Assembly: GCA_012839325.1 (NCBI GenBank)
Contig: DUNQ01000053.1
Span: 1-51,842, forward strand
Reading direction: 5' to 3'
DNA length: 51,842 bases
DNA from: Candidatus Cloacimonadota bacterium
Lineage (GTDB): Bacteria; Cloacimonadota; Cloacimonadia; Cloacimonadales; Cloacimonadaceae
This document shows positions 31,872-48,359 of the stretch, in pieces. Under the pieces are notes generated by a model. It was not told the origin of the DNA, did not search any database, and was given only the letters and a program-made list of their open reading frames with translations. Positions within the stretch are counted from its first letter, which is position 1, and each line of letters opens with the position of its first letter. Made by a program: the position numbers and the translations under genes.

Positions 31872-31908
31872 TCTCTTATTTTTTTAAAAAAGATTTGCAG
31901 GGAAATTG

Positions 31909-31936
31909 TTAGACAACCGTATAGATTGTAGTCTAA
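31909..31936. promoter_or_regulatory. Operator-like inverted repeat before the efflux operon
   Basis: TTAGAC (31909-31914) and GTCTAA (31931-31936) pair perfectly across 16 bases, with ACAA and TTGT placed inside the arms. The size suits a TetR or MarR dimer, common regulators of tripartite pumps. No regulator gene is adjacent. Confidence 0.35.
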
Positions 31937-31971
31937 ATAGAGTTAAATTTGAATATATAAGAAGGAAAAAA

Positions 31972-33222
31972 GTGAGAAACAAGTTAGCCTTAATACTGTT
32001 TATCTTGCTGCCAATCGCAATGGCGGCAAGCGTTTACACATTAGATGATCTGATCGAGCATGGCATCGAGCATAGCTTGAACATCCAAAAAGAGCTGCTC
32101 AGCGCAGAGAGCTCGAAAAGTGCTTTGACCTCCGCTTTGTGGAATTTTGCTCCGGAAGCAAGCATCAGCGCGGGGATAAATAAGGACTTCGATCCGCCGG
32201 TCTCGCGTTCATCGCTAAGCAGTCATGCAGGAATCGATATATCCAAAACCATCAGTTTGAACGATCCCAGCTATTTTAACTATCGCAGCGCTCTCTTGGA
32301 CGATCAAAGCGCGCAATTGAGACTTCAGAAAAACAAAAGCGAATATGCCTACAAGGTGTTCCAAGCCTTTCTCAGTGTGCTTTCAAACACGAAGCGCATG
32401 GAAGCCCTCAGCGAGAACCTTGAGATCCAAAACAGAGTGTGGGAGCAGAGCAAAACTCTCTTTCGTCTCGGCAAGATCACGCCTTTTGAAGTAAAGCAAA
32501 ATGAGATTGCCGTGATGAATTCTGAGATCAGCATTGTTCAGCTGGAAAACACGATAGAGAATGCGCGCGCCGAGCTCTTTTCCTTGATCCAAATGAAGGA
32601 CGAAGGCTATCCCCTGCAGGAGCTGGATATCGATATAAATAAGGACGTTCCCGCTTTTGACAGTTCGGAGATGATTCAACTGAGGCTTTTGGAGCAAGAG
32701 CTTAAAAAGCATGATCTGAACCTCACGCAGAACAATCTTAGCTATCTGCCGCGGCTGAACTTAGGCTACGGCTTTTCGCGCAAGGTATCCGGCGCTGATT
32801 TCGATTTTGATCAATATAACACCGTTCATAACGCATATCTCAGCCTCTCTTATCCCCTGCTCAGCTTTTTCACCAATAGAGAAAGTGCGAGCAGGCAAAA
32901 GATTGCTAAACAGCTTACTGAGCTGAATCTTGAAGATACGATACAGCAGAGCCAAAGCGACTATGAAAATAAGAGCAGGGTTTTAGAGTATCTCTTGCGC
33001 TTGGAAAGCCTCTATGCAGAAAGGCTTGAGCAAGCTTCGGCACAGATAGAGATCGCGCAGGAGCGCTACCGCCTGGGTCTCATTGAACTTCTTGAACTGG
33101 ATAAAACCAGGACTTCTTATATAGATGCAAGGCTTGAGTATGAAAATAATCGCTATGAAATCCTCAAAACTCAAGAGAGCTTAAACTTTCAAATGTCAAA
33201 ACCGATCTTAGGGAAATGGTAA
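31972..33222 (+). CDS. TolC-family outer-membrane efflux protein
   Basis: Outer-membrane channel of a tripartite pump. After a signal peptide (VRNKLALILFILLPIAMAAS) come two copies of the TolC helical hairpin: the first includes YKVFQAFLSVLSNTKRMEALSENLEIQNRVWEQSKTLFRLGKITPFEVKQNE, the second YAERLEQASAQIEIAQERYRLGLIELLELDKTR, each ending in the L-G-x-I-x-x-x-x-L/F pattern. I use the GTG at 31972, six bases after AAGGA and directly before a clean signal peptide; the frame is open to a TTG at 31906, but that would add 22 charged residues ahead of the signal. It overlaps the adaptor gene by 7 bases. Confidence 0.9.
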   Translation: MRNKLALILFILLPIAMAASVYTLDDLIEHGIEHSLNIQKELLSAESSKSALTSALWNFAPEASISAGINKDFDPPVSRSSLSSHAGIDISKTISLNDPSYFNYRSALLDDQSAQLRLQKNKSEYAYKVFQAFLSVLSNTKRMEALSENLEIQNRVWEQSKTLFRLGKITPFEVKQNEIAVMNSEISIVQLENTIENARAELFSLIQMKDEGYPLQELDIDINKDVPAFDSSEMIQLRLLEQELKKHDLNLTQNNLSYLPRLNLGYGFSRKVSGADFDFDQYNTVHNAYLSLSYPLLSFFTNRESASRQKIAKQLTELNLEDTIQQSQSDYENKSRVLEYLLRLESLYAERLEQASAQIEIAQERYRLGLIELLELDKTRTSYIDARLEYENNRYEILKTQESLNFQMSKPILGKW

Positions 33223-34532
33223 AAATGAAGAAATATATTAAATATGTAGTAATCCTGATAATAGTAGTCATCGCAGTAGTCTTGTTCGTTAGATATAGAA
33301 AAGCTAAATCCGCTCCGGAATGGAGAATGGACTCTCCTTCACGCGGGGCTATCCGTGAAGTGGTCACCGCCACGGGTTCACTGAATCCTTATGTGCTCGT
33401 GAACGTGGGAACCGAGGTGAGCGGTAAGATTGAAAAGTTGTATAAAGATCACAATGAAAAGGTAAGAAGAGGCGAGCTTCTCGCAAAGCTTGATACCGAG
33501 CTTTTGGATACGGCGCTGGAAGTAGCACGAAGCGAACTGGCAAAATCCACCACATCTATGCAAGAAGCAAAGCTGGATTTTGACCTCCAAGAAGAGCTGT
33601 ATGATAAAGATATGACCTCGGAATATGATCTTACCAAAGCTCGCTTCCGCTATCAAAACGCGCAGCAAAACTTGGCAAACTCTCAGCTAAACCTGCAGAG
33701 AGCCGAAAAGAACCTCTCCAATGCGCATATCACCAGCCCCATTGATGGCGTGATAGTTTCGCGTGCTGTGGACGAAGGTCAAACCGTGGCCGCCAGCCTG
33801 AACTCCCCCACCTTGTATATCATTGCGAATAATCTGGATAAGATGCAGATCACCGCAGGTGTTGACGAGGCAGATATAGGCAAAATCAAGCTGGATATGC
33901 CCGTGGAATTCACGGTTGATGCTCATCCTAATCAGCTTTTTTATGGCAAAGTTCAGCAGGTGAGGCTAAATCCCATCACGGAATCAAACGTTGTAACCTA
34001 TCAGGTTATAGTGGACGCATCAAATCCTGATGGCAAGCTGCTTCCCGGCATGACTACAAATGTAACATTCATCCTGCAAGCTAGCCCACAAGCTTTGCGC
34101 ATCCCCGAAACAGCCACGCGCTTCCGTCCCAGCAAAGAGCTTTGGGAGCTCTTTGGCCTGAAATGGAACGACGATATTCTCATGGCAGGGCGCAATGCTA
34201 TTCAAGAAGCGATGAGCGCACAGCAAGCCAAAGCCGCTGAGGCTAAAGATGAGGCTGCAGAAGCACCCGGAGGCGGCAGAGGCCGAGGAATGGGTATGCC
34301 TATGATGGGCGGCGGAGGCGGTGGTCAAGGCATGAGCAAGTACTCCGTGGTATGGGTGCTCAAAAATGATGTCCCCACGCCAATGGCAGTAAAGACAGGC
34401 ATCTCAGACGGTGCATTCGTTGAGCTTTTAGAAGAAATGGACGACAAAACCACGCTCATCACCGGTGTGAAATATAATGATCCCAAAAAAGCGCCTACCA
34501 GCAACATGGGACCGGGAATGAGAAGATTCTAA
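33216..34532 (+). CDS. MacA-like periplasmic adaptor (HlyD/RND family)
   Basis: Membrane-fusion protein linking the MacB-type ABC transporter to the TolC-type channel. One N-terminal membrane helix (about 7-25) is followed by a lipoyl half-motif (VVTATGSLNPYVLVNVGTEVSGKI), an alpha-helical hairpin (about 85-165), a second lipoyl half (ITSPIDGVIVSRAVDEGQTV) and a beta-barrel domain. Between barrel and membrane-proximal domain an insert (about 325-370) is alanine/glutamate-rich and then almost pure glycine, methionine and arginine; this is unusual for MacA. The start may be the ATG at 33216 or the ATG at 33225, which has the better-spaced AGGGA. Its stop overlaps the ATPase start. Confidence 0.92.
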   Translation: MVKMKKYIKYVVILIIVVIAVVLFVRYRKAKSAPEWRMDSPSRGAIREVVTATGSLNPYVLVNVGTEVSGKIEKLYKDHNEKVRRGELLAKLDTELLDTALEVARSELAKSTTSMQEAKLDFDLQEELYDKDMTSEYDLTKARFRYQNAQQNLANSQLNLQRAEKNLSNAHITSPIDGVIVSRAVDEGQTVAASLNSPTLYIIANNLDKMQITAGVDEADIGKIKLDMPVEFTVDAHPNQLFYGKVQQVRLNPITESNVVTYQVIVDASNPDGKLLPGMTTNVTFILQASPQALRIPETATRFRPSKELWELFGLKWNDDILMAGRNAIQEAMSAQQAKAAEAKDEAAEAPGGGRGRGMGMPMMGGGGGGQGMSKYSVVWVLKNDVPTPMAVKTGISDGAFVELLEEMDDKTTLITGVKYNDPKKAPTSNMGPGMRRF

Positions 34533-35275
34533 TGAACACGCTTTTACTTGAAACTAAAGGACTTTCAAAGACCTATATCATGGGTCAGATAAATGTGCAT
34601 GCGCTCAGGGATGTGGATATAACGGTGAATAACGGTGAATTCATAGCTGTGATGGGCGCCAGCGGAAGCGGAAAAACCACCTTTATGAACCTCTTGGGTT
34701 GTCTGGATAAACCTACTGAGGGAAGCTATTGGCTCGACGAAGTGGAAGTCCATAAGATGAGCTCCGAACAGCTCACCGTGATACGCAATGAGAAGATAGG
34801 CTTTGTATTCCAAAGCTTCTACCTTTTGCCGAGAACCAGCGCGCTGGAAAATGTGGAACTCCCTTTATTGTATTCCAAAAAAAGCAGCGCTCAAGAGCGT
34901 AAGGCAAAAGCCATGCAAGCTCTTGAAATAGTTGGCATTGCAGATAGATCTACGCACTTTCCAAATCAGCTTTCCGGCGGGCAACAGCAAAGAGTGGCAA
35001 TCGCACGGGCTATCGTGAACGACCCCTCATTCATTCTTGCAGATGAGCCTACGGGGAACCTGGATACACGAACGAGTATCGAGGTGATGGCTGTATTTCA
35101 ACAGCTGCACCGTCAGGGTAAGACCGTAGTGCTTGTCACTCACGAGCAAGAGATCGCACGCTATGCAAATCGTCATATCACCTTCCGTGATGGCAGGATA
35201 ATCTCGGATATAATCAATGAAAACCCTGCTGATGCGAGAGTTGATCTCAAGAACTTGCCATTGGAGGAAGATTAA
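34532..35275 (+). CDS. MacB/LolD-type ABC transporter ATPase
   Basis: Energises the adjacent permease. In 247 residues: Walker [11 protein letters not shown]-loop in [20 protein letters not shown], signature LSGGQQQR, Walker [13 protein letters not shown], and H-loop VLVTHEQE. The [22 protein letters not shown] stretch is typical of the MacB/LolD/FtsE branch. Start shares one base with the adaptor stop; the permease follows after 3 bases. Confidence 0.95.
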
Positions 35276-35278
35276 GCT

Positions 35279-36487
35279 ATGTCGATATTTGGAATAATAA
35301 AAATTGCGTTGAAGTCTCTCACGAGAAATAAGACAAGAACCTTTCTTACCATGCTGGGAATCATCATCGGCGTGGCGGCTGTGATCACTATGCTCGCTAT
35401 CGGTCAGGGCGCTAAAAAGATCGTTGAAGATCAAGTAAGCTCTATGGGCACAAACGTGATCATGGCACATTCAAACTTTAGCGGAACGGCTGTGCGGCAA
35501 GCTGCGGGCGGGGGTAACCTCATCACAGTGGACGATGTGGAAGCCATGCGCGATCTGGATGGCTTGCTTTATGCTTCACCGGTTTATAACACCTGGGGAC
35601 AGCTGAAATATGAAGGCAAAAACTGGCGCGGAAGCATTGCCGGAGTGGATGCGGACTATTTCTTCATCCGCAACATGAGCATAGCACAAGGTGAATTGTT
35701 CTATGGCTCGGATGTGGAAAATGGAAACAAGGTTTGCGTTATCGGTAAAACTGTGGCAGATAACCTCTTTGGAGATATAGATCCCATAGATAAGGTGATA
35801 CGCATCAGAAACATTCCCTTCACCGTGAGGGGAGTGTTAACCGAGAAAGGTCAAAGCGTGATGGGGCATGATCAAGACGATATCGTAATCGCGCCCTATA
35901 CCACGGTCTTCCAAAGGCTTTTGGGTAGACGCTGGCGCGTGATGTCTGTGATAGTATCTGCACAAAGTAAAGATCGCATACATCTCTTGCAACAGGATAT
36001 ATTGGATCTCTTGCAGGCGCGTCATCGCGGTACTACCAGTGAGGAATTCATCGTGAGTTCGCAAACGGAGCTGGCAGAAACTGCAAACGAAGTCTCTAAT
36101 ACAATGACCATACTCTTGGCGTCTATCGCCGGCATATCGCTGCTCGTGGGCGGAATCGGGATCATGAATATCATGTTGGTTTCGGTGACGGAGCGCGTAA
36201 AAGAGATTGGCATCCGCATGGCTGTGGGTGCAGGAAAGCGAGATGTGCTGCTGCAATTCATCATCGAGGCAATCTCTATCAGCATTATGGGAGGTATACT
36301 CGGCATCTTGCTGGGCTTCGGTGCTGCAAAGATCGTGGGTAATACCATGAGTTGGAATATCGCCGTTACACCTTGGTCTATCGCGCTATCCGTGAGCTTT
36401 TCTATGGCAATCGGCGTCTTCTTTGGCTGGTATCCGGCAAAGAAGGCGGCAAACCTCAATCTAATCGATGCCTTGCGCTATGAATAA
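35279..36487 (+). CDS. MacB-type ABC permease (FtsX fold)
   Basis: Inner-membrane permease with an N-terminal helix (about 17-40), a periplasmic MacB_PCD domain (about 45-260) and three C-terminal helices (about 275-385). The FtsX-family motif GIMNIMLVSVTERVKEIGIRMAVGA and the ending WYPAKKAANLNLIDALRYE are diagnostic. Unlike E. coli MacB, the ATPase is a separate gene. With the TolC and MacA-like genes it forms a pump for exporting peptides, lipids or drugs from the periplasm. A strong terminator follows. Confidence 0.95.
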   Translation: MSIFGIIKIALKSLTRNKTRTFLTMLGIIIGVAAVITMLAIGQGAKKIVEDQVSSMGTNVIMAHSNFSGTAVRQAAGGGNLITVDDVEAMRDLDGLLYASPVYNTWGQLKYEGKNWRGSIAGVDADYFFIRNMSIAQGELFYGSDVENGNKVCVIGKTVADNLFGDIDPIDKVIRIRNIPFTVRGVLTEKGQSVMGHDQDDIVIAPYTTVFQRLLGRRWRVMSVIVSAQSKDRIHLLQQDILDLLQARHRGTTSEEFIVSSQTELAETANEVSNTMTILLASIAGISLLVGGIGIMNIMLVSVTERVKEIGIRMAVGAGKRDVLLQFIIEAISISIMGGILGILLGFGAAKIVGNTMSWNIAVTPWSIALSVSFSMAIGVFFGWYPAKKAANLNLIDALRYE

Positions 36488-36583: not shown

Positions 36584-39500
36584 ATGCTGAGAAATCAATC
36601 TTTCCAAAAAGAAAAGCAGGAGCGCTTGAAGAAGACCATCGATATGGTCACCCGCCTCTATGTCTATATTCTGAAAAGCGATAGCCAGATATCGGGCGCA
36701 GAGATAGAGATCCTTTATTCGCTACTCATCAATCTCTTTGCACAGGTGGATGTATCTTGGGAAACCTATGTAAAAGAGATAGTGGAAAGTGAATATCGCA
36801 TTGAGGATGTCTTTGTGTATCTGGATAGACATCTCTCGGTTTTCGATAAGATAAGGTTGATTCAATCGCTGGTGATCATGGCAAATACTGAGGCGGATTT
36901 TGCAATCAGCGACCTCACCGAGATCATGGAGCTGGCGAAGAATCTCAATATTAGTGCGGCTACTTTCCTGCCGCTTATTGATCACTTTGAAAAGCAAGCT
37001 CAGGAGTCCGTGCATATCGTCTGCCGTCATCATCTCAGCCATGTAAAGCATTCTGTATTTTCGGATTACGTGGTCTTTGGGCATGGTGATCCGGCGGATA
37101 TTCAATATAGGGATTCAAGGCTCAGCGCTTATGAAGGGGCTATCTTTGCTATCGATAAGTATATGTTTCTCAGCGTTGGAAGCGGTAGTAATGCCATCTT
37201 GGACGGACAAAAGGCGGAGCAAAATGCTATTCATCTGCTAAATGAATCTTCCGTCTTGATGATTGCTGATCGTGAGTATAGCTATTCTTGTTTGCAAAAG
37301 ATGTATTCACAAAGAGATCAGGCGGATGATATAGTCTTCCGTAAGCCGGAATATGAGTTTATCTTCCGTAAGTTTAAGAGTTCATATAGCATTGTGGTTT
37401 ACAACGGATCGATGAGCCTAAACGGCAGAGAGATGTCTCACAATCGGCGTTATGAAGTGTTTTATGACGATACTTTGCAGATCAGGAACTATGCCCCCTT
37501 CCACCTGGGGATGGTGATACAAGATAGAGCTGTAATCGGCATAGAGGACTACCTTCCGCAGGCTTTATATATCATCTCGGATAAGGGTTATCTGCATATC
37601 TCACGAGAGGATAGTGATAAGAGCATCACAAGTATACAATATCGGGATGATGGCTTTTATATCTATCCGCCACGCAAGGGCTTTCAGGTCTTTATAAATC
37701 AGCAGGAGTTAAGTGAGCCGCGACTCTTTAACCTCAATATAGATACCCTTACCATAGATAAAAAGAACTATAGAATCAATAACTTCTATGATCTGATTGA
37801 AACTCCTTTTGAGATAGAATCCTATGTGGTCACAGATATTAAGCACTACTTCCCTGATGGGGTGATGGCGCTGGATTCTGTATCCTTTGAAGCGAATAAA
37901 GGGCAGATGGTGGCAATCCTGGGGCAAAGCGGGTGTGGTAAATCAACTCTCACCAAAGTGCTATCCTCGGAGATCATGCCCACTTATGGTCAGATACGGA
38001 TAGATGGTAAAAACCTCTATACTAATATCTCATATTTTCAGGAGCATATTGCCTACGTTCCGCAAGACGACCTGCTTTATCCCAACCTCAGCGTGTATGA
38101 AAACCTTTGGTATAGGATAAGGTTGAGAATGCCTGAGGTGCAAAAGGAGATCCTTGAGCAAAAGGTGAATAATATCCTGCATCAGGTGAATCTAAGCCAA
38201 CATCGCGATACTATCGTGGGAGATTTTAAGAAAAAGAACCTCAGCGGTGGGGAAAGAAAGCGACTCAATCTCGCGCTGGAGCTGCTCTTTGAGCCTACCA
38301 TCATCATCTGTGATGAGCCCACCAGCGGGTTGTCTTTCAACGATGCGGAGCACATCATAGAGATACTATCAAGCCTTTGTGAGCAAGATAAGATTGTGAT
38401 CCTCACCATACATCAGCCAAATAGCAGTATCTATAGGAAGTTCGACCGCGTTATGATGATGGATATGGGCGGAAAGATTGCCTTCTATGGCACGCCTACG
38501 GAGAGCTTCCGCTATTTTGATGAAGAGCTGAGCATGCTGAGCGTGCGTAAGGCTGAGGTGGAGAAGAAAAGACACCTGCTCACTACCGACTATTTCTATG
38601 ATATAATCACCTATCCGCTTTATGACGAGATGGGACAGCCCGTGTATGAGCAAACTCATAAACAGGTGCAGGCAAAGCGTATGTTTCCGCCGGACTATTG
38701 GCGGGATAAATATAAGCGCAAGATGCTCTATGAGCTGATGCTCAGCGATGTTCAGAGCCTGCCTGTGCCCTCTGCGAGCGTGAAGCGAAAAGAGAAGAGG
38801 CTCAAGCCGAAGAGCTATTATATCTCTATGCTCTCCTTCATCTCGCGTAGCTTTAAGATGAAGATACGAAATCGTACCAATAATCTCATCACCTTCCTGG
38901 AAGCGCCGCTCTTGGGGCTGATCATCTCCTTCATCCTGCGCCATACCACCACGGGCGTATACTCTTATGCCGAAAACAATAACATCTCTATATATATATT
39001 TGTTTCCATCATTGCTTTCATCTTTTTGGGGATGTCGAACTCTATGGAGGAGATACTAAGCGAGAGAAAGATCATCCTGCGTGAGAGACTGATGAATCTT
39101 AAGGCGAGCAACTATCAGTTCTCAAAGCTCTTGGTACTATCCTTCTTTGGGCTGATACAAGCTGTATTGTATCACAGCATCGCAGCGCTGGTCTTGGATA
39201 TACGCGGGCTAAGCTTTATAAATATCTTCTATTTCTATCTGGCGTCGCTCATAGGCAATTCCATAGGGCTGCTTACCTCTGCTTTTATCAAAGAAAATAG
39301 AGCGATCATAAACTTCCTGCCGCTGATACTCATTCCGCAGATTATCTTTGGCGGTGCGGTGATAGAATTTGAGAGAATGAACCACGATCTTAAGCTCTAT
39401 GAAAAGCATCCCATCCCTGAGATTGTGCAGGTCGTGCCCTCACGCTGGCTCTTTGAGGGACTCGCCACAGCTTATGCCAAAAATACCGCATTTCATAAGA

Positions 39501-39850
39501 AATTGAACACTATTAAGAAAAAAGAATTGACATATTTGCAAGGCTACAGGAATGCTACAATCAGTAGCTCCCAGTTCCAAAAGAAGCGAACTGAGATCTA
39601 TTATGCAAAAACAAAACTCGCTGAAAAGTGGGATCCTAACCGCATTGTGAACGGCTATTTGAACTCTGCCGTGAGCATCATGGATGGCAGGGTTCTAAAC
39701 AGCGGGAAGAATGAGTTTCTCTCTTCCATCAAGCTGGTGGGGAGATATAGACGCAAAACATGGAACTATAATGCACTGGTGATAATGCTTTTTGCCTTGG
39801 CGCTGAATCTTATCACCTGGATTAAGATAAAATATTATTTTAAAGAATAA
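36584..39850 (+). CDS. ABCG-type half-transporter fused to TerB-like and FHA-like domains
   Basis: Single protein (1088 residues). Residues about 14-135 form an all-helical acidic domain like TerB (DMVTRLYVYILKSDSQISGAEIEIL). About 150-410 is beta-rich with two FHA-like stretches (VVYNGSMSLNGREM; LFNLNIDTLTIDKKNYRI). The ABC domain follows: Walker A GQSGCGKST (447-455), signature LSGGERKR from 553, Walker B IIICDEPTSGL. The C-terminal ABC2 membrane domain (about 790-1080) has about six helices and a large extracytoplasmic loop before the last one. Nucleotide-binding before membrane domain is the ABCG order. Similar fusions are known in Bacteroidota-like bacteria; the substrate is unknown. A lipoprotein gene follows after 12 bases. 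Confidence 0.88.
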   Translation: MLRNQSFQKEKQERLKKTIDMVTRLYVYILKSDSQISGAEIEILYSLLINLFAQVDVSWETYVKEIVESEYRIEDVFVYLDRHLSVFDKIRLIQSLVIMANTEADFAISDLTEIMELAKNLNISAATFLPLIDHFEKQAQESVHIVCRHHLSHVKHSVFSDYVVFGHGDPADIQYRDSRLSAYEGAIFAIDKYMFLSVGSGSNAILDGQKAEQNAIHLLNESSVLMIADREYSYSCLQKMYSQRDQADDIVFRKPEYEFIFRKFKSSYSIVVYNGSMSLNGREMSHNRRYEVFYDDTLQIRNYAPFHLGMVIQDRAVIGIEDYLPQALYIISDKGYLHISREDSDKSITSIQYRDDGFYIYPPRKGFQVFINQQELSEPRLFNLNIDTLTIDKKNYRINNFYDLIETPFEIESYVVTDIKHYFPDGVMALDSVSFEANKGQMVAILGQSGCGKSTLTKVLSSEIMPTYGQIRIDGKNLYTNISYFQEHIAYVPQDDLLYPNLSVYENLWYRIRLRMPEVQKEILEQKVNNILHQVNLSQHRDTIVGDFKKKNLSGGERKRLNLALELLFEPTIIICDEPTSGLSFNDAEHIIEILSSLCEQDKIVILTIHQPNSSIYRKFDRVMMMDMGGKIAFYGTPTESFRYFDEELSMLSVRKAEVEKKRHLLTTDYFYDIITYPLYDEMGQPVYEQTHKQVQAKRMFPPDYWRDKYKRKMLYELMLSDVQSLPVPSASVKRKEKRLKPKSYYISMLSFISRSFKMKIRNRTNNLITFLEAPLLGLIISFILRHTTTGVYSYAENNNISIYIFVSIIAFIFLGMSNSMEEILSERKIILRERLMNLKASNYQFSKLLVLSFFGLIQAVLYHSIAALVLDIRGLSFINIFYFYLASLIGNSIGLLTSAFIKENRAIINFLPLILIPQIIFGGAVIEFERMNHDLKLYEKHPIPEIVQVVPSRWLFEGLATAYAKNTAFHKKLNTIKKKELTYLQGYRNATISSSQFQKKRTEIYYAKTKLAEKWDPNRIVNGYLNSAVSIMDGRVLNSGKNEFLSSIKLVGRYRRKTWNYNALVIMLFALALNLITWIKIKYYFKE

Positions 39851-39862
39851 GGAGTAACGATA

Positions 39863-40660
39863 ATGAAGACTCGTTTAATAATTGCTGTCATAGCACTAAG
39901 CTTGCTATTCTCTTGGGGATGCAAGAAAAAAGCCGATCAGTTGCCTGATGAAGAGATGGCATCTATGATCACAACCTTCGCTCCGCTGCCTTCTTTTAAA
40001 GAAGTCTATGCGAGCTTGGATCAGGTTCAGGTGAAAGACATTGCCGCGGCAGTGCCCACCGAAATCTTTAAGACAAAGCAAGAAGAAGTTCGCAATGCGT
40101 TCTCACTGGGACTTCTCACCGCTGATGCAGTTCTCGCTGCAAAAGGTAGAGATAAGAACAAACTCAGAGACATCTCTGCTCAGATGATGAGCCTCACCGG
40201 CTTGCTCGGTCTCGAATCCGAAGTTAATCGCCTCGGGGACGAGATGAAGACCATGATTGAAAAGAGCGACTGGGATGGATTGGATAAGGCTCTCGACTTC
40301 CATAAAGAGGACGTGGAAAGCGCGCTCTGGGAAGCTGAGAACTATGACAACTATACACTTATGCTCATGGGTGGCTGGATCGAAGCCGCAAACCGCATCG
40401 CTTGGCTGGTGGATCAAGATTACTCTGCAGAGCGCACTAAGGTCTTGGCTCAAAAAGGAACCTTCAACCACCTTCACTCCAATCTTAAGCAAATCAAAAG
40501 CGAGCATGTGGTAGAACAAGCTGCCTTCCAAACTGCGCTTGAGAATGTGCAGGAGCTTAGAGAGCTGATCAATAGCGATCAAGACGGTGTTTATAACAAA
40601 GAACAAATTAAATCCATCATCGAGCTTACCGGCAATATCAAAGCCGCTTTTCAAGAATAA
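39863..40660 (+). CDS. Helical lipoprotein, unknown function
   Basis: Signal peptide with lipobox (LFSWGC, lipidated cysteine about 20), then about 240 residues predicted mostly helical, with no cysteine after the lipid site. The stretch NYDNYTLMLMGGWIEAANRIAWLVDQDYS stands out as aromatic and glycine-rich and may be a binding site. No family recognised with confidence. It starts 12 bases after the ABCG-type gene with AAGGAG upstream, so it is probably co-transcribed and may be an extracytoplasmic partner of that transporter or of the membrane proteins that follow. Confidence 0.82.
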   Translation: MKTRLIIAVIALSLLFSWGCKKKADQLPDEEMASMITTFAPLPSFKEVYASLDQVQVKDIAAAVPTEIFKTKQEEVRNAFSLGLLTADAVLAAKGRDKNKLRDISAQMMSLTGLLGLESEVNRLGDEMKTMIEKSDWDGLDKALDFHKEDVESALWEAENYDNYTLMLMGGWIEAANRIAWLVDQDYSAERTKVLAQKGTFNHLHSNLKQIKSEHVVEQAAFQTALENVQELRELINSDQDGVYNKEQIKSIIELTGNIKAAFQE

Positions 40661-40751: not shown

Positions 40752-41849
40752 ATGCGCAAGTGTATGCTCTTTCTTGCCTTTGTATTTTTGAGCACTTCGG
40801 TCTTTGCAAATGTCTTCATTGCCAAAGATTGCCCCTGTGATGACGGCACGGCTATAGACCTTTCTTGGGAGACCTGTCCCCTCACCGAATACGTCACCAT
40901 ATATAGGATGAATGACGATTCTAAGTGGGAAGAGATCGCCAAGATCAATCAGTCCAGCGGCACTTATAAAGATAGCGAGCTGGAAATCAACAAAGAATAT
41001 CACTATAGGCTACAGGTTCACTTCATCGATGATGATCTGTTTTTCGAGGCATCCGCAATCACTATAGAACAGTGGTTCAACACCAATAAGCTGGGCTTTC
41101 TCGTGATCCTGCTGCTCATCTGCTTTGCCATCATCTATTATATCATCGCTGCCCAAAGAGGGAAAGAGTTCTTTATTCGCCGCATATCTGGCCTAGATAG
41201 CATGGAAGAAGCAATAGGCCGCGCTACTGAAAAGGGTAAACCAATACTCTTCGTGCCCGGCATCAGCGATCTGGATAATATCGAAACCATTGCCAGCCTC
41301 ACCATACTAAGTCAGCTTGCTGAGAAGAGCGCTGAATATGGCACAGAGCTCATCGTTCCTTGCCGCTTCTCTATGGTGCTTTCGGCAGCCAAAGAAGTGG
41401 TGCAAGAAGCCTATATCAGAGCCGGAAGAGCTGATGCTTATAAAGCAGATAACATATTCTACCTCACTGATGACCAGTTTGGCTTCGTGGCGGGGATTGA
41501 TGGCATCATGCTAAGAGAACAGCCGGCGGCAAACTTCTTCTTGGGCTCCTTCTATGCGGAGTCTCTCATCTTGGCAGAAACCGGCTTCTCCACGGGTGCG
41601 ATACAAACGGCAGGCACGGCACAGGCTCATCAATTGCCCTTCTTTGTGGTATCTTGCGACTATACGCTTATAGGTGAAGAGCTCTTTGCAGCCAGCGCAT
41701 ATCTTTCTAAAAACCCTCAACAATTAGGTAGCCTCAAAGGGCATGACTTCGGTAAGATAGTTATCATCATCCTTATCATTGCCGGTGTCATCCTCGAGAT
41801 CCTCGGATATGGCTTCCTCAAAGAATTCATAGTAGGAGCTGTATCATGA
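40752..41849 (+). CDS. Membrane protein with FN3-like and DUF6754-like domains
   Basis: Signal peptide (1-19), a fibronectin-III-like domain (about 30-105: TAIDLSWETCP...YVTIYRMND...KEYHYRLQV), a membrane helix (about 114-134), a 200-residue domain (about 145-330) that I assign to DUF6754, and a C-terminal helix (about 335-357). The main domain alternates strand and helix (PILFVPGIS, ELIVPCRFSM, FFLGSFYAES, LPFFVVSCDYTLIGEELFAASAYL). The DUF assignment is from memory of the family and not from a search. No catalytic motif is clear. AGGAG lies six bases before the ATG. The stop overlaps the next membrane gene (ATGA); four membrane genes are tightly coupled here. Confidence 0.8.
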   Translation: MRKCMLFLAFVFLSTSVFANVFIAKDCPCDDGTAIDLSWETCPLTEYVTIYRMNDDSKWEEIAKINQSSGTYKDSELEINKEYHYRLQVHFIDDDLFFEASAITIEQWFNTNKLGFLVILLLICFAIIYYIIAAQRGKEFFIRRISGLDSMEEAIGRATEKGKPILFVPGISDLDNIETIASLTILSQLAEKSAEYGTELIVPCRFSMVLSAAKEVVQEAYIRAGRADAYKADNIFYLTDDQFGFVAGIDGIMLREQPAANFFLGSFYAESLILAETGFSTGAIQTAGTAQAHQLPFFVVSCDYTLIGEELFAASAYLSKNPQQLGSLKGHDFGKIVIIILIIAGVILEILGYGFLKEFIVGAVS

Positions 41850-42541
41850 AGAGAAATATACCCTTAGTCTTTGCCTTCGTGGCGGGGATGTTGGTCATCT
41901 TGGCAGAGTTTATCCCGCATAGACCATTCAATCAGATAGTATCCACTTTGGAAGGCTGGTTCATGATCATCTCCGGCTTTGCGATACTCTTGGGGCAGAT
42001 CAGCCTAATCAGGATGAATTCAAACAAGATAAGACATAAGTTGCCCGATTGGCAATATAGCCTCGCTGGCTTGATCAGCTTTGCGCTCATGCTCATCGTG
42101 GGACTACTTTGGGGCATGCAAGAGACACACGGCATCTTAGGAGAGGGACTTGGAATACAAGCGGCACTCGGAGCAAAGCCATTTGACTATCTCTTCACGA
42201 ACGCATTGCTCCCGCTCTCATCCACTCTCTTTTCACTGCTTGCTTTCTTTATCGCCTCTGCAGCATACAGAGCTTTTATATTCCGCAGCTTTGAATCAAA
42301 CCTACTGATGATAACCGCCGTGATAGTTATCATAGGACGCACCAGCTTAGGCTCCATGCTCACCGCGGGCTTGCCTGAATCACTGCAGTTTTGGCACATC
42401 CCAAACCTTGCAGATTTCATCATGGAATACCCCAATTCAGCCGCACAGAGAGCAATCTTGGTCTCGGCAGGACTGGGGATAGTGGGCAGCTCGCTGCGCA
42501 TCATCTTGGGCATCGAGCGTAGCTATTTAGGAGGCGACTGA
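41846..42541 (+). CDS. Six-helix membrane protein, unknown function
   Basis: 231 residues with about six membrane helices (roughly 8-22, 35-52, 68-92, 115-140, 150-170, 205-222). Conserved-looking loop features are EFIPHRPFNQ after helix 1 and LWGMQETHGILGEGLG after helix 3. I do not recognise a family. Start overlaps the DUF6754-type gene by four bases; the stop shares one base with the next ATG (TGATG). Likely a subunit of a complex with its neighbours. Confidence 0.82.
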   Translation: MKRNIPLVFAFVAGMLVILAEFIPHRPFNQIVSTLEGWFMIISGFAILLGQISLIRMNSNKIRHKLPDWQYSLAGLISFALMLIVGLLWGMQETHGILGEGLGIQAALGAKPFDYLFTNALLPLSSTLFSLLAFFIASAAYRAFIFRSFESNLLMITAVIVIIGRTSLGSMLTAGLPESLQFWHIPNLADFIMEYPNSAAQRAILVSAGLGIVGSSLRIILGIERSYLGGD

Positions 42542-43365
42542 TGAAGCTATCTGTAACAATAGAACGGCGCATCATCTTTACGGTCTTGCTCATCGCTGTT
42601 GCCTTGCCGCTGATCTTCCCCATCGGCTGGACAACCGGTATATCATCTTATACAGAGATGGTCTATGATCTCATGGAGGAAACGCCGGATGGCTCGGTAA
42701 TCATTCTCTCTTTTGATTATGACCCCTCTACGATCACCGAGCTCCAACCCATGGCAGAAGCAATGATAGAGCACGCTTTTAATAAGAATCACAAGATAAT
42801 AGCTACAGCGCTATGGCCGATGGGCGTACAGATGGCAGAGAAAGCCTTTGAGAAGGTCTTGGAAGAATACCCTGAGAAAGTGCGCGGCGAAGACTTCGTG
42901 AATCTCGGCTACAAGGTAGGCGGCATGGTGACCATCCAAGCTATGGGACGCAGCTTGCCTGAGGTGTATCCCAATGATATCAATGGGCGCAAGTATGAAG
43001 ACATCCCCATGCTAAAGGGAATACATCGCCTCAAGAATGTTGCCTTCATAGCATCTCTTTCCAGCGGAGTTCCCGGCCTCAAAGAATGGATGATGGTGGC
43101 ACATGACACGCACGACATCCCCGTAACGGGCGGATGCACAGCCATCAGCGCACCGGGCTTCTTCCCTTATATAAACGAACAAGAGCAGCTGCACGGCGTA
43201 TTGGGCGGACTCAAAGCAGCCAGCGAATATGAAAGCCTGATTGGTAAGATGGGCAGCGCTACCACCAAGATGGACGCTCAATCCATCGCCCACCTTTTGA
43301 TCTTGGTATTCATCGCCTTGGGCAATATCAAAGCCTACACCACAAGAAGGAGGAAAAAACAATGA
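42541..43365 (+). CDS. Two-helix membrane protein with a large soluble domain
   Basis: A membrane helix at 10-29, a soluble domain (about 45-240) and a C-terminal helix (about 245-262) before a basic tail (TTRRRKKQ). The soluble domain shows the same order of elements as the main domain of the gene at 40752: a leading strand (SVIILSFDY), a long helix, a second strand (HKIIATAL), a second helix (AEKAFEKVLEEY), then a glycine-rich C-terminal half ending GCTAISAPGFFPYINEQEQLHGVLGGL. I infer related folds. Function unknown. Overlaps neighbours by 1 and 4 bases. Confidence 0.82.
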   Translation: MKLSVTIERRIIFTVLLIAVALPLIFPIGWTTGISSYTEMVYDLMEETPDGSVIILSFDYDPSTITELQPMAEAMIEHAFNKNHKIIATALWPMGVQMAEKAFEKVLEEYPEKVRGEDFVNLGYKVGGMVTIQAMGRSLPEVYPNDINGRKYEDIPMLKGIHRLKNVAFIASLSSGVPGLKEWMMVAHDTHDIPVTGGCTAISAPGFFPYINEQEQLHGVLGGLKAASEYESLIGKMGSATTKMDAQSIAHLLILVFIALGNIKAYTTRRRKKQ

Positions 43366-44000
43366 GCGGATTCATGACAGTTCTCGGTATTTGGATAGCC
43401 GCCTTTTTCACCCTCAGCATCTTTAGTTTCTTGTATAAAGACAACCCCTTTTATAAGTTTGCCGAGCAAGTATTCGTGGGTCTTTCCGCGGCATACTGGC
43501 TGGTATATATCTATTATTCCATCATGTTGCCCAACCTATTTAGCAAGTTGGCAGCAGACTTTAGCGGCAATATCATCCTGCTAATCCCCGCCGGACTGGG
43601 CCTTCTCATGCTGATGAGATTACATCCCAAAACGCAGTGGCTGAGCCGCTTCCCCTTGGCAATCATGGTTGGCACCACAGCCGGCATCTCGCTCTTGCGT
43701 CATATGAAGAGCGATATCCTGCAACAAGTTGCCGCAACCATGATAAACCCCTTCGCAAGCGGACAACCCTCCGTGATCATAGGCAATCTGCTGTTGATAA
43801 TAGGCACGATTACGGGCATATTCTTCTTCTATTTCAGCAAGAAGCAAGAAGGAATATATAAGATCCCCTCTAAGATAGGGATATGGTTTTTGATGGTGAG
43901 TTTCGGCGCCACTTTCGGCTACACTGTGATGGCAAGAATCTCGCTACTGATCGGTAGGCTCGAATTCCTTTTGGGCGACTGGTTACATCTAATTAAATAA
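43362..44000 (+). CDS. Polytopic membrane protein, unknown function
   Basis: 212 residues with about six membrane helices, starting MSGFMTVLGIWIAAFFTLSIFSFLY. A notable segment is FSFLYKDNPFYKFAEQVFVGLSAAYWLVY at helices 1-2. Repeated arginines in the middle (LMRLHPKTQWLSRFPLAIMVGTTAGISLLRHM) may sit at the cytoplasmic face. No named family recognised. Overlaps the upstream gene by four bases; the ligase gene follows after 11 bases. Confidence 0.82.
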   Translation: MSGFMTVLGIWIAAFFTLSIFSFLYKDNPFYKFAEQVFVGLSAAYWLVYIYYSIMLPNLFSKLAADFSGNIILLIPAGLGLLMLMRLHPKTQWLSRFPLAIMVGTTAGISLLRHMKSDILQQVAATMINPFASGQPSVIIGNLLLIIGTITGIFFFYFSKKQEGIYKIPSKIGIWFLMVSFGATFGYTVMARISLLIGRLEFLLGDWLHLIK

Positions 44001-44011
44001 GGAAGTGTAGT

Positions 44012-45535
44012 ATGCTTTTATTGCATCAAATATTTATACGATCTGCAAAGAAATTCCCCAAGCGCATAGCGGTTTATGATAAGACCACCATGCAAGACTA
44101 TAGCTATGAAAAGCTTCTGATTGCGAGCCTGATACTCAAAGGACACATAGGCAAGATCAGAGGCAAATATATAGGCATCCTGCTTCCCACGGGTGCCGGA
44201 GGCATGCTCACCATACTCGGAACGCTGATGAACGGCAAGATCCCGGTGATGATAAACTATGCCACGGGCGCGATTGAGAACTGCAAATACGCTCAGGAAA
44301 AGTGTCAGTTCAGAACGATTATCACCAGCAAGCAACTGCTGAAGAAGATGGGCTTGGAGCCTATTGAAGACATGATCTTCGTAGAGGATATACTCTCTAA
44401 AGTGACGCTTGCATCAAAGCTTAAAGCAGCAGCTCTTTCCAAGCTACCTTTTGCCGTGCTCAAAAACCTCGTCCATACAGGCGACATCAACGAAACCTCT
44501 GTGATACTCTTCACCAGCGGCAGCGAAAGAGAGCCGAAAGCAGTGCAGCTTTCCCATAAAAACATCCTGCATAACGTGATTTCCTTCCCCAAGATGATAC
44601 ACTTGGATGAGAACGAAGTCTTTGGCTCCATACTCCCTCTTTTCCACGTGTTTGGGCTAACGGTTAACTTCTGGCTACCCATCACCATAGGCGCTTCTAT
44701 GATGGCTTATGCAAACCCCTTGGAATACAGAACGGTATGCGAACATATCAGACAATATAAGGTGAGCTTCATCGCGGCAACCCCTGCTTTCTTTTATGGA
44801 TATCTGCAGAGATCCAAGCCCGGCGACTTTGAATCCGTAAGAATAGCAATCGCCGGCGCAGACAAGCTTTCAGACAAGATATATGAAGGCTTCCTCGCCA
44901 AACACAACCTCACAGTATATGAAGGCTATGGCACGACAGAGACCAGCCCCGTGATCAGCACCTGCTTCCCCGGTGATCACAAAGAAGGCTCCATCGGACG
45001 CCCCATCCCAAACACACAGGTGAAGATACTTGATATCCACACCGATGAACTACTTCCCGCAAACAGAGAAGGCAAGATCATGGTAAAAGGCGACCTCGTA
45101 ATGGAAGGCTACCTCCACGATTTGGAACAGACCACCCTGCGCATACGCAACGGATGGTATGACACCGGCGATATCGGACTCATGGACGAAGACGGCTATC
45201 TCTTCCATAGAGGCAGGCTCAAACGCTTCGTAAAGATAGGCGGCGAGATGGTTTCACTGGTAAATGTTGAAGAGCATCTCAGCGAGCTTTTGCCGGATGA
45301 CGTAATCTGCTGCGTGGTAGATATCCCAAATCCCACCAAGGGCGCAGATGTTGTTGCAGCCGTAGCCAACGGTGATTTCGACATGAACAAAGTGCTTAAG
45401 AAGCTGAAGAAGCACCTCCCTGCAATCGCCGTCCCCAAGAAGTTTTATGTGATAGAAGATATCCCCATGATGGCAAGCGGGAAAGTGAACTTCCGCGAGG
45501 TGGAAAAAATAGTGCGCGAAAAGAGCAGGAAATGA
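44012..45535 (+). CDS. AMP-forming acyl ligase, acyl-ACP synthetase (Aas) type
   Basis: Activates a carboxylic acid as acyl-AMP, then passes it to CoA or ACP. Adenylation motifs: VILFTSGSEREPKAVQLSH (P-loop; the TSGS form is typical of the Aas C-terminal half), YEGYGTTETSPV, WYDTGDIG and the final MASGKVNFRE with the catalytic lysine. The 507-residue protein lacks the PlsC-type acyltransferase half of E. coli Aas. Fatty-acid activation for membrane lipid repair is the best guess. The start is preceded by AAGGA. Its stop overlaps the aldolase start by four bases. Confidence 0.87.
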   Translation: MLLLHQIFIRSAKKFPKRIAVYDKTTMQDYSYEKLLIASLILKGHIGKIRGKYIGILLPTGAGGMLTILGTLMNGKIPVMINYATGAIENCKYAQEKCQFRTIITSKQLLKKMGLEPIEDMIFVEDILSKVTLASKLKAAALSKLPFAVLKNLVHTGDINETSVILFTSGSEREPKAVQLSHKNILHNVISFPKMIHLDENEVFGSILPLFHVFGLTVNFWLPITIGASMMAYANPLEYRTVCEHIRQYKVSFIAATPAFFYGYLQRSKPGDFESVRIAIAGADKLSDKIYEGFLAKHNLTVYEGYGTTETSPVISTCFPGDHKEGSIGRPIPNTQVKILDIHTDELLPANREGKIMVKGDLVMEGYLHDLEQTTLRIRNGWYDTGDIGLMDEDGYLFHRGRLKRFVKIGGEMVSLVNVEEHLSELLPDDVICCVVDIPNPTKGADVVAAVANGDFDMNKVLKKLKKHLPAIAVPKKFYVIEDIPMMASGKVNFREVEKIVREKSRK

Positions 45536-46212
45536 TAGATATCACGCTCGGTGATGCACGCCTTGAGCCGCTACTACAACAGATTTCTGAAGTTGCTGGA
45601 CACATCCACAGCTATGGCTGGGCGGAAGCCAATGCCGGCAATATCAGCATCAACGTAAGCTCGCTTTTCACGCCTGAAGAGTTGGACTTTAAACAGCTTT
45701 ACCTCGTATCAAGAGCAGGAAGCAGATACAGACAAACTGCGCTGAAGCCAAAGGAGAACCTCCTACTTGTGCTCTCGGATAAAGACCAAGACATCTACCA
45801 GCCCAGTGATGCCAAGCCCACCAGCGAGTGGATCAGCCACAAATGCCTACAAATGCAAAGACCACGGTTCAGTGTGATCCTGCACACCCATCCCGCCGAG
45901 ATCATCGCCCTAAGACAGATCCCTAAGCTGCAGGATACCAAACTACTCAACAGGCTTCTTCCTGAGATACTTCCCGAATTTTCATTATACTTACCCGAGG
46001 GCATAGCCATGGCACCGCTCTGCCCTCCCGGCTCACAAGAGCTATGCGACGCAAGCAGCAGCGCGCTCAAAGACGAAAAAGCACTGATCTGGAGCGGACA
46101 CGGCTTACTCTCCTTTTCTGATGACCTCGATTTCGCGCTTGATTACATGGAGATAATCGTCAAAGCCTGCCGCGTCCTCTTCCTCTACCCCGAGCTCCTG
46201 AAGCTATTTTAG
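45532..46212 (+). CDS. Class II aldolase/adducin-family protein, RhaD-like
   Basis: Zinc-dependent sugar-phosphate aldolase fold, 226 residues. Phosphate-binding NAGNIS (34-39), catalytic acid E99 in PTSEWISHK, zinc histidines H118 and H120 in LHTHP, and H190 in SGHGLLSF all align with rhamnulose-1-phosphate aldolase positions. It is shorter than RhaD (about 274). No other rhamnose or fucose genes are near, so the substrate is open. It overlaps the ligase gene by four bases; the stop codon lies within the CIRCE element that precedes htpG. Confidence 0.85.
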   Translation: MIDITLGDARLEPLLQQISEVAGHIHSYGWAEANAGNISINVSSLFTPEELDFKQLYLVSRAGSRYRQTALKPKENLLLVLSDKDQDIYQPSDAKPTSEWISHKCLQMQRPRFSVILHTHPAEIIALRQIPKLQDTKLLNRLLPEILPEFSLYLPEGIAMAPLCPPGSQELCDASSSALKDEKALIWSGHGLLSFSDDLDFALDYMEIIVKACRVLFLYPELLKLF

Positions 46213-46235: not shown

Positions 46236-46253
46236 CAATCCCCTTGACAAGAT

Positions 46254-46276
46254 TGCCAAGCGCAGCTTTCTTGGCA
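46254..46276. promoter_or_regulatory. Second inverted repeat in the htpG leader
   Basis: TGCCAAG (46254-46260) and CTTGGCA (46270-46276) are a perfect 7-bp inverted repeat with a nine-base spacer, the same geometry as CIRCE but a different sequence. It lies between the TTGACA at 46244 and the htpG ribosome site. It could be a second operator or an RNA hairpin. Confidence 0.5.
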
Positions 46277-46309
46277 TCGTTAATAATATCATCAAGGAGA
46301 AACATAAAA

Positions 46310-48310
46310 ATGGCTAAGAAAAATGCACAAGAAACAGGTAGTTTCAGCATACACACTGAAAACATCTTTCCCATTATCAAGAAGTGGCTCTACTCCCAAC
46401 ACGACATCTTTTTAAGAGAGCTCGTATCCAACTCAGTTGACGCCATTTCCAAGCGCAGTTATGCGGATGATGGCTTCAAAGAAGAAGATATGAAGATTGA
46501 GATAAAGCTGGATAAATCCAAGAAGACTTTAGAAATTCACGACACCGGAATCGGCATGACTTCGGACGAGATCAAGAAATATATCAACCAAATCGCGTTT
46601 TCCGGCGCCGAAGAGTTTGTGAATAAATTCAAGGACGTTCAGACCAATATAATCGGACATTTCGGACTGGGATTCTACTCATCTTTCATGGTGGCAGAAA
46701 AGGTGACCATTGATTCACTCTCATACACGGAAGGCGCAAAGCCGGCATATTGGGAATGCGACGGCAGCACAGAATACCTTATGAAAGAAGGCAAGCGTAA
46801 AGAAGTGGGCACCACCATCACGCTCCACTTCAATAAAGAATCTGAAGAATATGCAGATTCCGACAAGATACGCGAGATTCTGCTGCGCTACTCAAACTTC
46901 CTACCCATCCCCATCATGTTTGAAGACAAGCAGATAAACCAGCTCGAAGCACTTTGGAACCGCGCTCCGAAAGACGTCACCGACGAAGAATACATCAAGT
47001 TCTACAAGGAAGTATTCGGCGACCACCGCGATCCCGTTTTCTGGATTCACCTGAACGTGGACTTCCCCTTCAACCTCAAAGGGATACTCTATTTCCCCCA
47101 ACTTCGCAACGAACCCGAATTCTTCAAAGGACAGGTTAAACTCTTTTGCAACAACGTATTTGTGGCAGACAACCTCGAAGAGCTCATCCCCGAATTCTTG
47201 CTCTTGCTTAAAGGCGGCATAGACATCCCGGATATCCCGCTCAACGTCTCACGCAGCTTTCTGCAAAACGACGCACAGGTGCAAAAGATCTCGCGCTATA
47301 TCATCAAGAAAGTCGCAGATCACCTCAAAGACACCTTCAAGGAAGACAGAAAGAAGTATGAAGAATATTGGGAAGACATCCATACCTTCATCAAGTTCGG
47401 CATGCTCAAAGAGGAAGATTTCTTTGAAGCTATGCACGAACATGTGCTCTTCAAATCAGCCTCCGGCGACTACCTCACCATAGAGGAGTATAAGACGCGC
47501 AACGCAGCCGATGATGAAGGCAAGACCCGCATCTGGTATGCAGCCGGCGAAGATACGCAGGTAAGCTATCTGAACCTGATGAAAGAGCAAGGCCTGGAAG
47601 TGATCTACCAAAACTCCCCCTTGGACGTACACCTCTATCAGAGACTTGAAGGCAAGTTAGAAAAGACCGAATTCATCCGAGTGGATAGCGAAGTAAACGA
47701 ACTGCTCGTTGATGAAGACCAAAGCAAGCTCGATAAAGACGATGTAAACCGCCTCAAAAAGCTCTTTTACAGAGCCTTAGACCAAAAGGTGGAAGCATCC
47801 TTCAGCGAGGAAAGCTGGAAGGAATTTCTCAAGAAACACCCGCAGGCTACCGAAGCGCTTACTCCGCATCAGATCCAAGAAGGCGAGACCACACGCTTTG
47901 ACCTTCTCGGCTTGCCCACAGAGGTAGAGGAAACCTTAGGCGAAGAAGCCATGAAAGAGCTAAACTCTCATGCCTACACCGAGGTGACAGTTGAGCTAAA
48001 GAGCTTGAAATCCAAGGAAATCCCCGGCATGATAGTCTTCAGCGAATTCATGAGACGCTGGCACGATATGGACATGATGAACACCTTCGGCGGCGGCATG
48101 GATATGCTGAAAAACCACAGCCTCGTGATCAACACCGAGAACCCCATCATTCAGAAGCTGGTAGAGCTGGACAAAGCGGGAGAGGATGAGAAAGTTCAGA
48201 CCATCTCTTCATACATCCACCGCCTCTCACTCTTGGAACAAAAACCCTTCACCGGCGAGGAACTCAAAGACTTCATCGCCAAAGCAAATAAGGTTCTTTC
48301 CTACTTATAA
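46310..48310 (+). CDS. htpG: Molecular chaperone HtpG (Hsp90)
   Basis: ATP-dependent chaperone, cytosolic dimer. The GHKL ATPase domain is at the N-terminus: FLRELVSNSVDAISK (catalytic Glu, metal Asn), DTGIGM, and GHFGLGFYSSFMVAEKV. The middle domain includes YFPQLRNEPEFFKGQVKLFCNNVFVAD and VSRSFLQNDAQVQKI. The C-terminal dimerisation domain follows. At 666 residues it is longer than E. coli HtpG (624). I start at the ATG at 46310, which has AAGGAG ten bases upstream; the open frame reaches a TTG at 46244 inside the control region. Heat-shock control by HrcA is expected from the CIRCE element; hrcA itself is not in the window. Confidence 0.96.
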   Translation: MAKKNAQETGSFSIHTENIFPIIKKWLYSQHDIFLRELVSNSVDAISKRSYADDGFKEEDMKIEIKLDKSKKTLEIHDTGIGMTSDEIKKYINQIAFSGAEEFVNKFKDVQTNIIGHFGLGFYSSFMVAEKVTIDSLSYTEGAKPAYWECDGSTEYLMKEGKRKEVGTTITLHFNKESEEYADSDKIREILLRYSNFLPIPIMFEDKQINQLEALWNRAPKDVTDEEYIKFYKEVFGDHRDPVFWIHLNVDFPFNLKGILYFPQLRNEPEFFKGQVKLFCNNVFVADNLEELIPEFLLLLKGGIDIPDIPLNVSRSFLQNDAQVQKISRYIIKKVADHLKDTFKEDRKKYEEYWEDIHTFIKFGMLKEEDFFEAMHEHVLFKSASGDYLTIEEYKTRNAADDEGKTRIWYAAGEDTQVSYLNLMKEQGLEVIYQNSPLDVHLYQRLEGKLEKTEFIRVDSEVNELLVDEDQSKLDKDDVNRLKKLFYRALDQKVEASFSEESWKEFLKKHPQATEALTPHQIQEGETTRFDLLGLPTEVEETLGEEAMKELNSHAYTEVTVELKSLKSKEIPGMIVFSEFMRRWHDMDMMNTFGGGMDMLKNHSLVINTENPIIQKLVELDKAGEDEKVQTISSYIHRLSLLEQKPFTGEELKDFIAKANKVLSYL

Positions 48311-48329: not shown

Positions 48330-48359
48330 AAAAGCCCCGGCATCACACCGGGGCTTTTT
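48330..48359. terminator. Bidirectional terminator between convergent genes
   Basis: AAAAGCCCCGG (48330-48340) and CCGGGGCTTTT (48348-48358) form a perfect 11-bp stem with a seven-base loop and T runs on either strand. It serves htpG on the plus strand and the coiled-coil gene on the minus strand. Confidence 0.93.

Follow-up and report, generated by a model that had tools for sequence, protein, structure and literature searches.

Four overlapping genes of a Cloacimonadota bacterium, here called A, B, C and D, very likely encode the subunits of one cell-envelope complex, whose physical association and stoichiometry we infer. They lie as four plus-strand ORFs in the order A-B-C-D at positions 40752-44000 of a 51,842-nucleotide contig (DUNQ01000053.1 of assembly GCA_012839325.1; hereafter the window), and we refer to them as the DUF6754 module. 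The module is uncharacterised, with A carrying a domain of unknown function and B, C and D passing no Pfam cut-off. Its presence in 58 of 60 genomes, usually as two ancient copies, together with a core that is 85% identical, makes it likely to be central to the cell biology of its phylum. Cloacimonadota are largely uncultured and common in anaerobic digesters; the module marks a probable envelope machine of this phylum and offers a defined target for structural study.

Results

Gene organisation of the module

The overlaps of 4 bases between A and B, 1 base between B and C and 4 bases between C and D, reported in the initial annotation of this DNA, are confirmed by the ORF coordinates (Table 1). 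An AGGAG-like Shine-Dalgarno site lies directly 5' of all four start codons.

Table 1. Features of the DUF6754 module and its surroundings, in window coordinates
Feature	Position	Strand	Description
ABCG-type half transporter	36584..39850	+	ABC ATPase and ABC-2 membrane domain; long N-terminal extension; linked in the window's family
Lipoprotein	39863..40660	+	265 aa, no family; directly 5' of A
Subunit A	40752..41849	+	365 aa; signal peptide, FN3, TM, DUF6754 core, TM
A, FN3 domain	40812..41060	+	residues ~21-103; periplasmic (predicted); AlphaFold and Foldseek
A, DUF6754 (PF20539) region	41067..41825	+	residues 106-358, both flanking TM helices included
Subunit B	41846..42541	+	231 aa; ~6 TM helices; both termini inside (predicted)
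Subunit C	42541..43365	+	274 aa; TM, ~200-residue Rossmann-like alpha/beta domain, TM, basic tail
Subunit D	43362..44000	+	212 aa; 5-6 TM helices; R192 and R199 conserved in the last hydrophobic stretch
AMP-forming ligase	44012..45535	+	closest to models of Aas (acyl-[ACP]-phospholipid O-acyltransferase), ligase half
Class II aldolase	45532..46212	+	nearest are sugar-phosphate and rhamnulose-1-phosphate aldolases
Terminator-like hairpin	48330..48358	+	11 pairs; strongest of the scanned region; after HtpG, between two convergent genes

The module is kept, lost and duplicated as a unit

Of the 60 Cloacimonadota genomes sampled, 58 carry every one of the four genes, and none of the four occurs in the remaining two, G028 and G044. 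The 62 loci compared come from many genomes and read A-B-C-D wherever the locus is complete, with deviations only at contig ends and at one split reading frame, so that within Cloacimonadota the four genes are not found apart. All titled relatives retrieved in a contig scan with close-range patterns are Cloacimonadota, and DUF6754 is absent from 14 well-known control genomes; DUF6754-like sequences may also occur in other phyla. The genomes G028 and G044 are each more than 90% complete and miss both copies of the module, while G028 retains the lipoprotein neighbour; lineages that lost the module in this way could reveal its purpose.

The host genome contains three DUF6754 genes. Two of them belong to a second operon, located on a different contig, which encodes a long A (970 aa), B, C (393 aa), D and then a second long A (919 aa), the second-operon A having a 700-residue ectodomain. 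Identity between the two operons is 37% for B, 32% for C, 43% for D and 46-51% for the A cores. Most members have both a short-arm and a long-arm version of the module, and some long-arm operons carry one further A. The trees of all four families split the short-arm from the long-arm operons, with node support of 1.0 on the long side and uneven support (0.08-0.93) on the short side. This separation in all four gene trees indicates that the whole module was duplicated, and early. Co-occurrence, gene order and whole-module duplication thus give strong support to the earlier proposal that the four proteins, with their complementary topologies, make up one coupled membrane module.

Subunit A combines a fixed DUF6754 core with a variable FN3 arm

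Subunit A matches DUF6754 (PF20539) at 403 bits (Pfam, E=5.7e-121, model positions 3-255 of 257), the curated Pfam cut-off being 27 bits for the whole-protein score; over all 257 model positions, A and the two long-arm paralogues score 369-403 bits. PF20539 is a Pfam family of no assigned function, and its entry leaves B, C and D uncovered. Around a core of ~200 residues lie TM helices at ~116-134 and ~336-354, and the soluble core, residues 136-332, is predicted to be cytoplasmic. The AlphaFold model of this core is unreliable, with residues 240-331 below pLDDT 50, and a Foldseek match of A to the LNS2 domain of Nir2 (E=3.3e-5) was set aside, since its rmsd is 33 Å and it depends on model regions of low confidence.

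The N-terminal arm is modelled with higher confidence (block-mean pLDDT mostly 85-94 over residues 21-103) and matches FN3tt (7jgu) in Foldseek with E=5.8e-6 and a target TM-score of 0.80. By sequence, FN3 stays below the Pfam cut-off in A, the best model being the FN3-like one of DSCAM (14.8 of 39 bits), and a search against the sequences of solved structures gave a weak FN3-like match at best (E=0.09). The signal-peptide/FN3/DUF6754 protein described initially is therefore recovered, with the FN3 fold resting on the predicted structure; the likeness to FN3 domains is confined to the arm, and neither the rest of A nor its partners are FN3 proteins. Across 20 relatives, mean identity is ~85% (minimum 80%) in the soluble core of short A and ~31% in the FN3 arm. 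The core contains near-absolutely conserved polar stretches that include GRATEKG, REQPAANF and CDYTLIGEE, and C302 and D303 are among the conserved polar residues of A. This contrast between core and arm, together with long-arm paralogues of 919-970 aa, fits a machine that stays constant while its arm adapts.

Subunits B, C and D are membrane proteins with predicted complementary topologies

Topology was predicted from hydropathy and the positive-inside rule. Subunits B and D, annotated initially as two polytopic proteins of about six helices, have six hydrophobic segments each, the last one of D being possibly amphipathic, which leaves 5-6 predicted TM helices in D. Subunit C agrees with its description as a two-helix protein with a large soluble domain: residues 5-25 and 239-273 are TM segments and residues 36-233 form an alpha/beta domain (AlphaFold mean pLDDT 84, pTM 0.81). 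From the distribution of charges, the two termini of B and the DUF6754 core are predicted to lie inside, and the FN3 arm and the soluble domain of C to face outward. Within predicted membrane segments, polar residues are conserved in C (H251, N262) and in D (R192, R199).

No Pfam or NCBIfam family reaches its cut-off on B, C or D, and sequence searches of the PDB found no solved-structure relatives for A, B, C or D. Homology between B and D was considered and dropped, as hhalign found nothing. The A core and C gave a collinear, full-length but weak alignment (hhalign P=0.016), and 2 of 180 column-shuffled controls were equally good; the sequences hint that the A core and C may be related domains, but the two are predicted to lie on opposite sides of the membrane. 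In genome G035 (L036 7824-9011), B reaches 396 aa through an insertion of ~165 residues that interrupts the family match within the third loop.

Genomic neighbours are conserved mainly within one family

The genes around the module had been taken initially to suggest a link to lipid or envelope metabolism, and in the window's family these neighbours are indeed conserved: the lipoprotein gene is immediately upstream of A in 25 of 25 loci, the ABCG gene lies 5' of the lipoprotein gene in many loci, and an Aas-type ligase or a class II aldolase follows 3' of D in nearly all loci in which the contig continues. In the window, the ligase starts 11 bases past D and matches Aas ligase-half models with E=1.3e-138. 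The likeness to Aas belongs to this neighbour only and not to the module subunits, and the neighbour differs from Aas in having no acyltransferase half and in its inconstant linkage outside the window's family.

Elsewhere in the phylum the linkage is mostly absent. The flanking genes there encode a MobB-like GTPase, a MoxR ATPase, an M23 peptidase, aconitase and ApbE, and the lipoprotein and ligase genes were found mostly on other contigs or were undetected in the phylum survey; two genomes of another family (G010 and G056) have the lipoprotein gene close to the module, and the ligase gene lies close to it in G027 and close to the long-arm operon in G014. Because such neighbours are conserved mainly within one family, the link to lipids or the envelope is weak, a lead and not a result, and because they change outside that family, context does not fix the substrate.

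Discussion

A model for the complex and its alternatives

The model that we favour, tentatively, is of a constitutive, obligate inner-membrane A-B-C-D complex with a variable periplasmic arm that functions in envelope assembly or transport, the transport role and the substrate being presumed. In this model, B and D would form a membrane core of ~12 TM helices, capped on the cytoplasmic face by the DUF6754 domain of A and on the periplasmic face by the alpha/beta domain of C, while the FN3 arm of A would extend into the periplasm and bind a variable partner, which may be an envelope protein, a glycan or a lipid carrier. Such a complex would most likely be a platform for envelope assembly or for transport, moving a substrate that is hydrophobic or bound for the cell surface through the inner membrane or releasing it from there. 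Walker A motifs are absent from the A core, B and D and occur in 1 of 63 C sequences, which is chance level; a module without an ATPase of its own must draw its energy from elsewhere, and ion gradients, partner enzymes or another ATPase, such as the ABCG protein linked in the window's family, could provide it. We further consider it possible, if rather doubtful, that the module is a core envelope machine of a new type, probably important for growth, with two distantly related alpha/beta caps (A inside, C outside), exchangeable periplasmic arms and an early short-/long-arm duplication of which almost every member has retained both products.

An unlikely alternative is that the module is a transmembrane sensor, in which the FN3 arm, with C, binds an envelope signal that B and D relay and that the cytoplasmic DUF6754 domain passes on to an unlinked partner. 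A variable FN3 ectodomain joined to a nearly fixed cytoplasmic core would suit such a sensor, as would the other ectodomains carried by the long-arm paralogues and the weak matches of 11 of 28 B members to 7TMR-DISM_7TM (best E=0.00088). However, the match that is fully seen, on B of the second operon (B2), scores 17.3 bits, far under the cut-off of 29, and could stem from TM composition, and although B is similarly multi-helix to the 7TMR-DISM receptors, with sub-threshold matches only, its chain has neither a receptor ectodomain nor an output domain. Moreover, no kinase, cyclase, phosphatase or regulator is found in the module or constantly adjoining it, and a simple receptor would not need three extra obligate membrane subunits. 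For the receptor-like face suggested initially, a variable FN3 arm is present, but the module has no domain for signalling output.

Somewhat less likely again is an enzyme complex in the membrane that takes part in lipid or glycolipid metabolism and in which the alpha/beta domains of A (inside) and C (outside) are catalytic or bind cofactors. The near-absolute conservation of the polar stretches in the A core is compatible with this idea, as are the Aas-type ligase and class II aldolase genes co-linear with the module in the window's family. Subunit C shares the alternating strand-helix order of Rossmann-like alpha/beta proteins such as GT-B domains and dehydrogenases, and many of its weak Foldseek matches are Rossmann-type enzymes. 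Yet no solved fold matches C at E<=0.001 (best E=2.6e-3; listed TM-scores <=0.47), and C differs from these proteins in its two flanking TM helices, its predicted periplasmic site and its lack of a recognised motif. No substrate-binding or catalytic motif was recognised in the module; HExxH and CxxC are not conserved in its subunits, and GxSxG is common only in D, inside a hydrophobic stretch, while linkage to the enzyme neighbours is not conserved across the phylum. A HAD, metalloprotease, thiol or P-loop enzyme was rejected because the relevant motifs are not conserved.

We regard as improbable a phylum-specific pathway for secretion to, or anchoring at, the outer surface, for example of proteins with C-terminal sorting domains. 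The near-universality of the module in the phylum would agree with it, and near the second operon lies a gene (L024 12535-14259) for a secreted protein whose C-terminal sorting domain, recognised by eye, is type-IX-like, but no subunit matches a known secretion family in Pfam or NCBIfam, and linkage to sorting-domain substrates is not systematic. Finally, that four unrelated housekeeping membrane genes are merely adjacent in one clade, for which only the absence of an assigned function speaks, has a negligible probability, since invariant order, co-loss and joint duplication contradict it across the phylum and rule out chance neighbours.

Relation to known systems

Neither DUF6754 nor PF20539 is named in the literature searched, and a phylum-wide paper on Cloacimonadota from 2026 mentions no DUF (PMC13082233). 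Neither in sequence nor in fold did the module match a known type of system, a provisional finding from alignments that are shallow and limited to Cloacimonadota. A role in anti-phage defence and a phage origin were both rejected: eight subunits have no PADLOC match at E<=0.1, the PHROGs phage families gave no match at E<=0.1, and no relatives were found in viral contigs or plasmids. A defence role is also disfavoured because the module is near-universal in the phylum.

Other features of the two loci

In the window, four co-linear genes at 31906-36487 include a MacB-like ABC ATPase and permease (Pfam), and the first two resemble the outer-membrane factor and periplasmic adaptor of a tripartite exporter; the ABCG-type gene lies directly 3' of this set. 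The N-terminal ~400 residues of the ABCG-type protein that precede its ATPase (36584-37800) appear by eye to be TerB-like and FHA-like, neither being named by Pfam. Near the second operon, a 678-aa protein encoded after the second long A (L024 8360-10396) matches the M29 metallopeptidases at 45.8 bits (cut-off 27), and a relative of this gene adjoins the long-arm operon of L058. Downstream of the module in the window, the hairpin at 48330-48358 possibly marks the end of the transcription unit. The gene before it, at 46244-48310, encodes HtpG (Hsp90-like, by eye) and has a listed start at the TTG at 46244, with a likelier start at the ATG at 46310, which is preceded 5' by the site AAGGAGAAAC.
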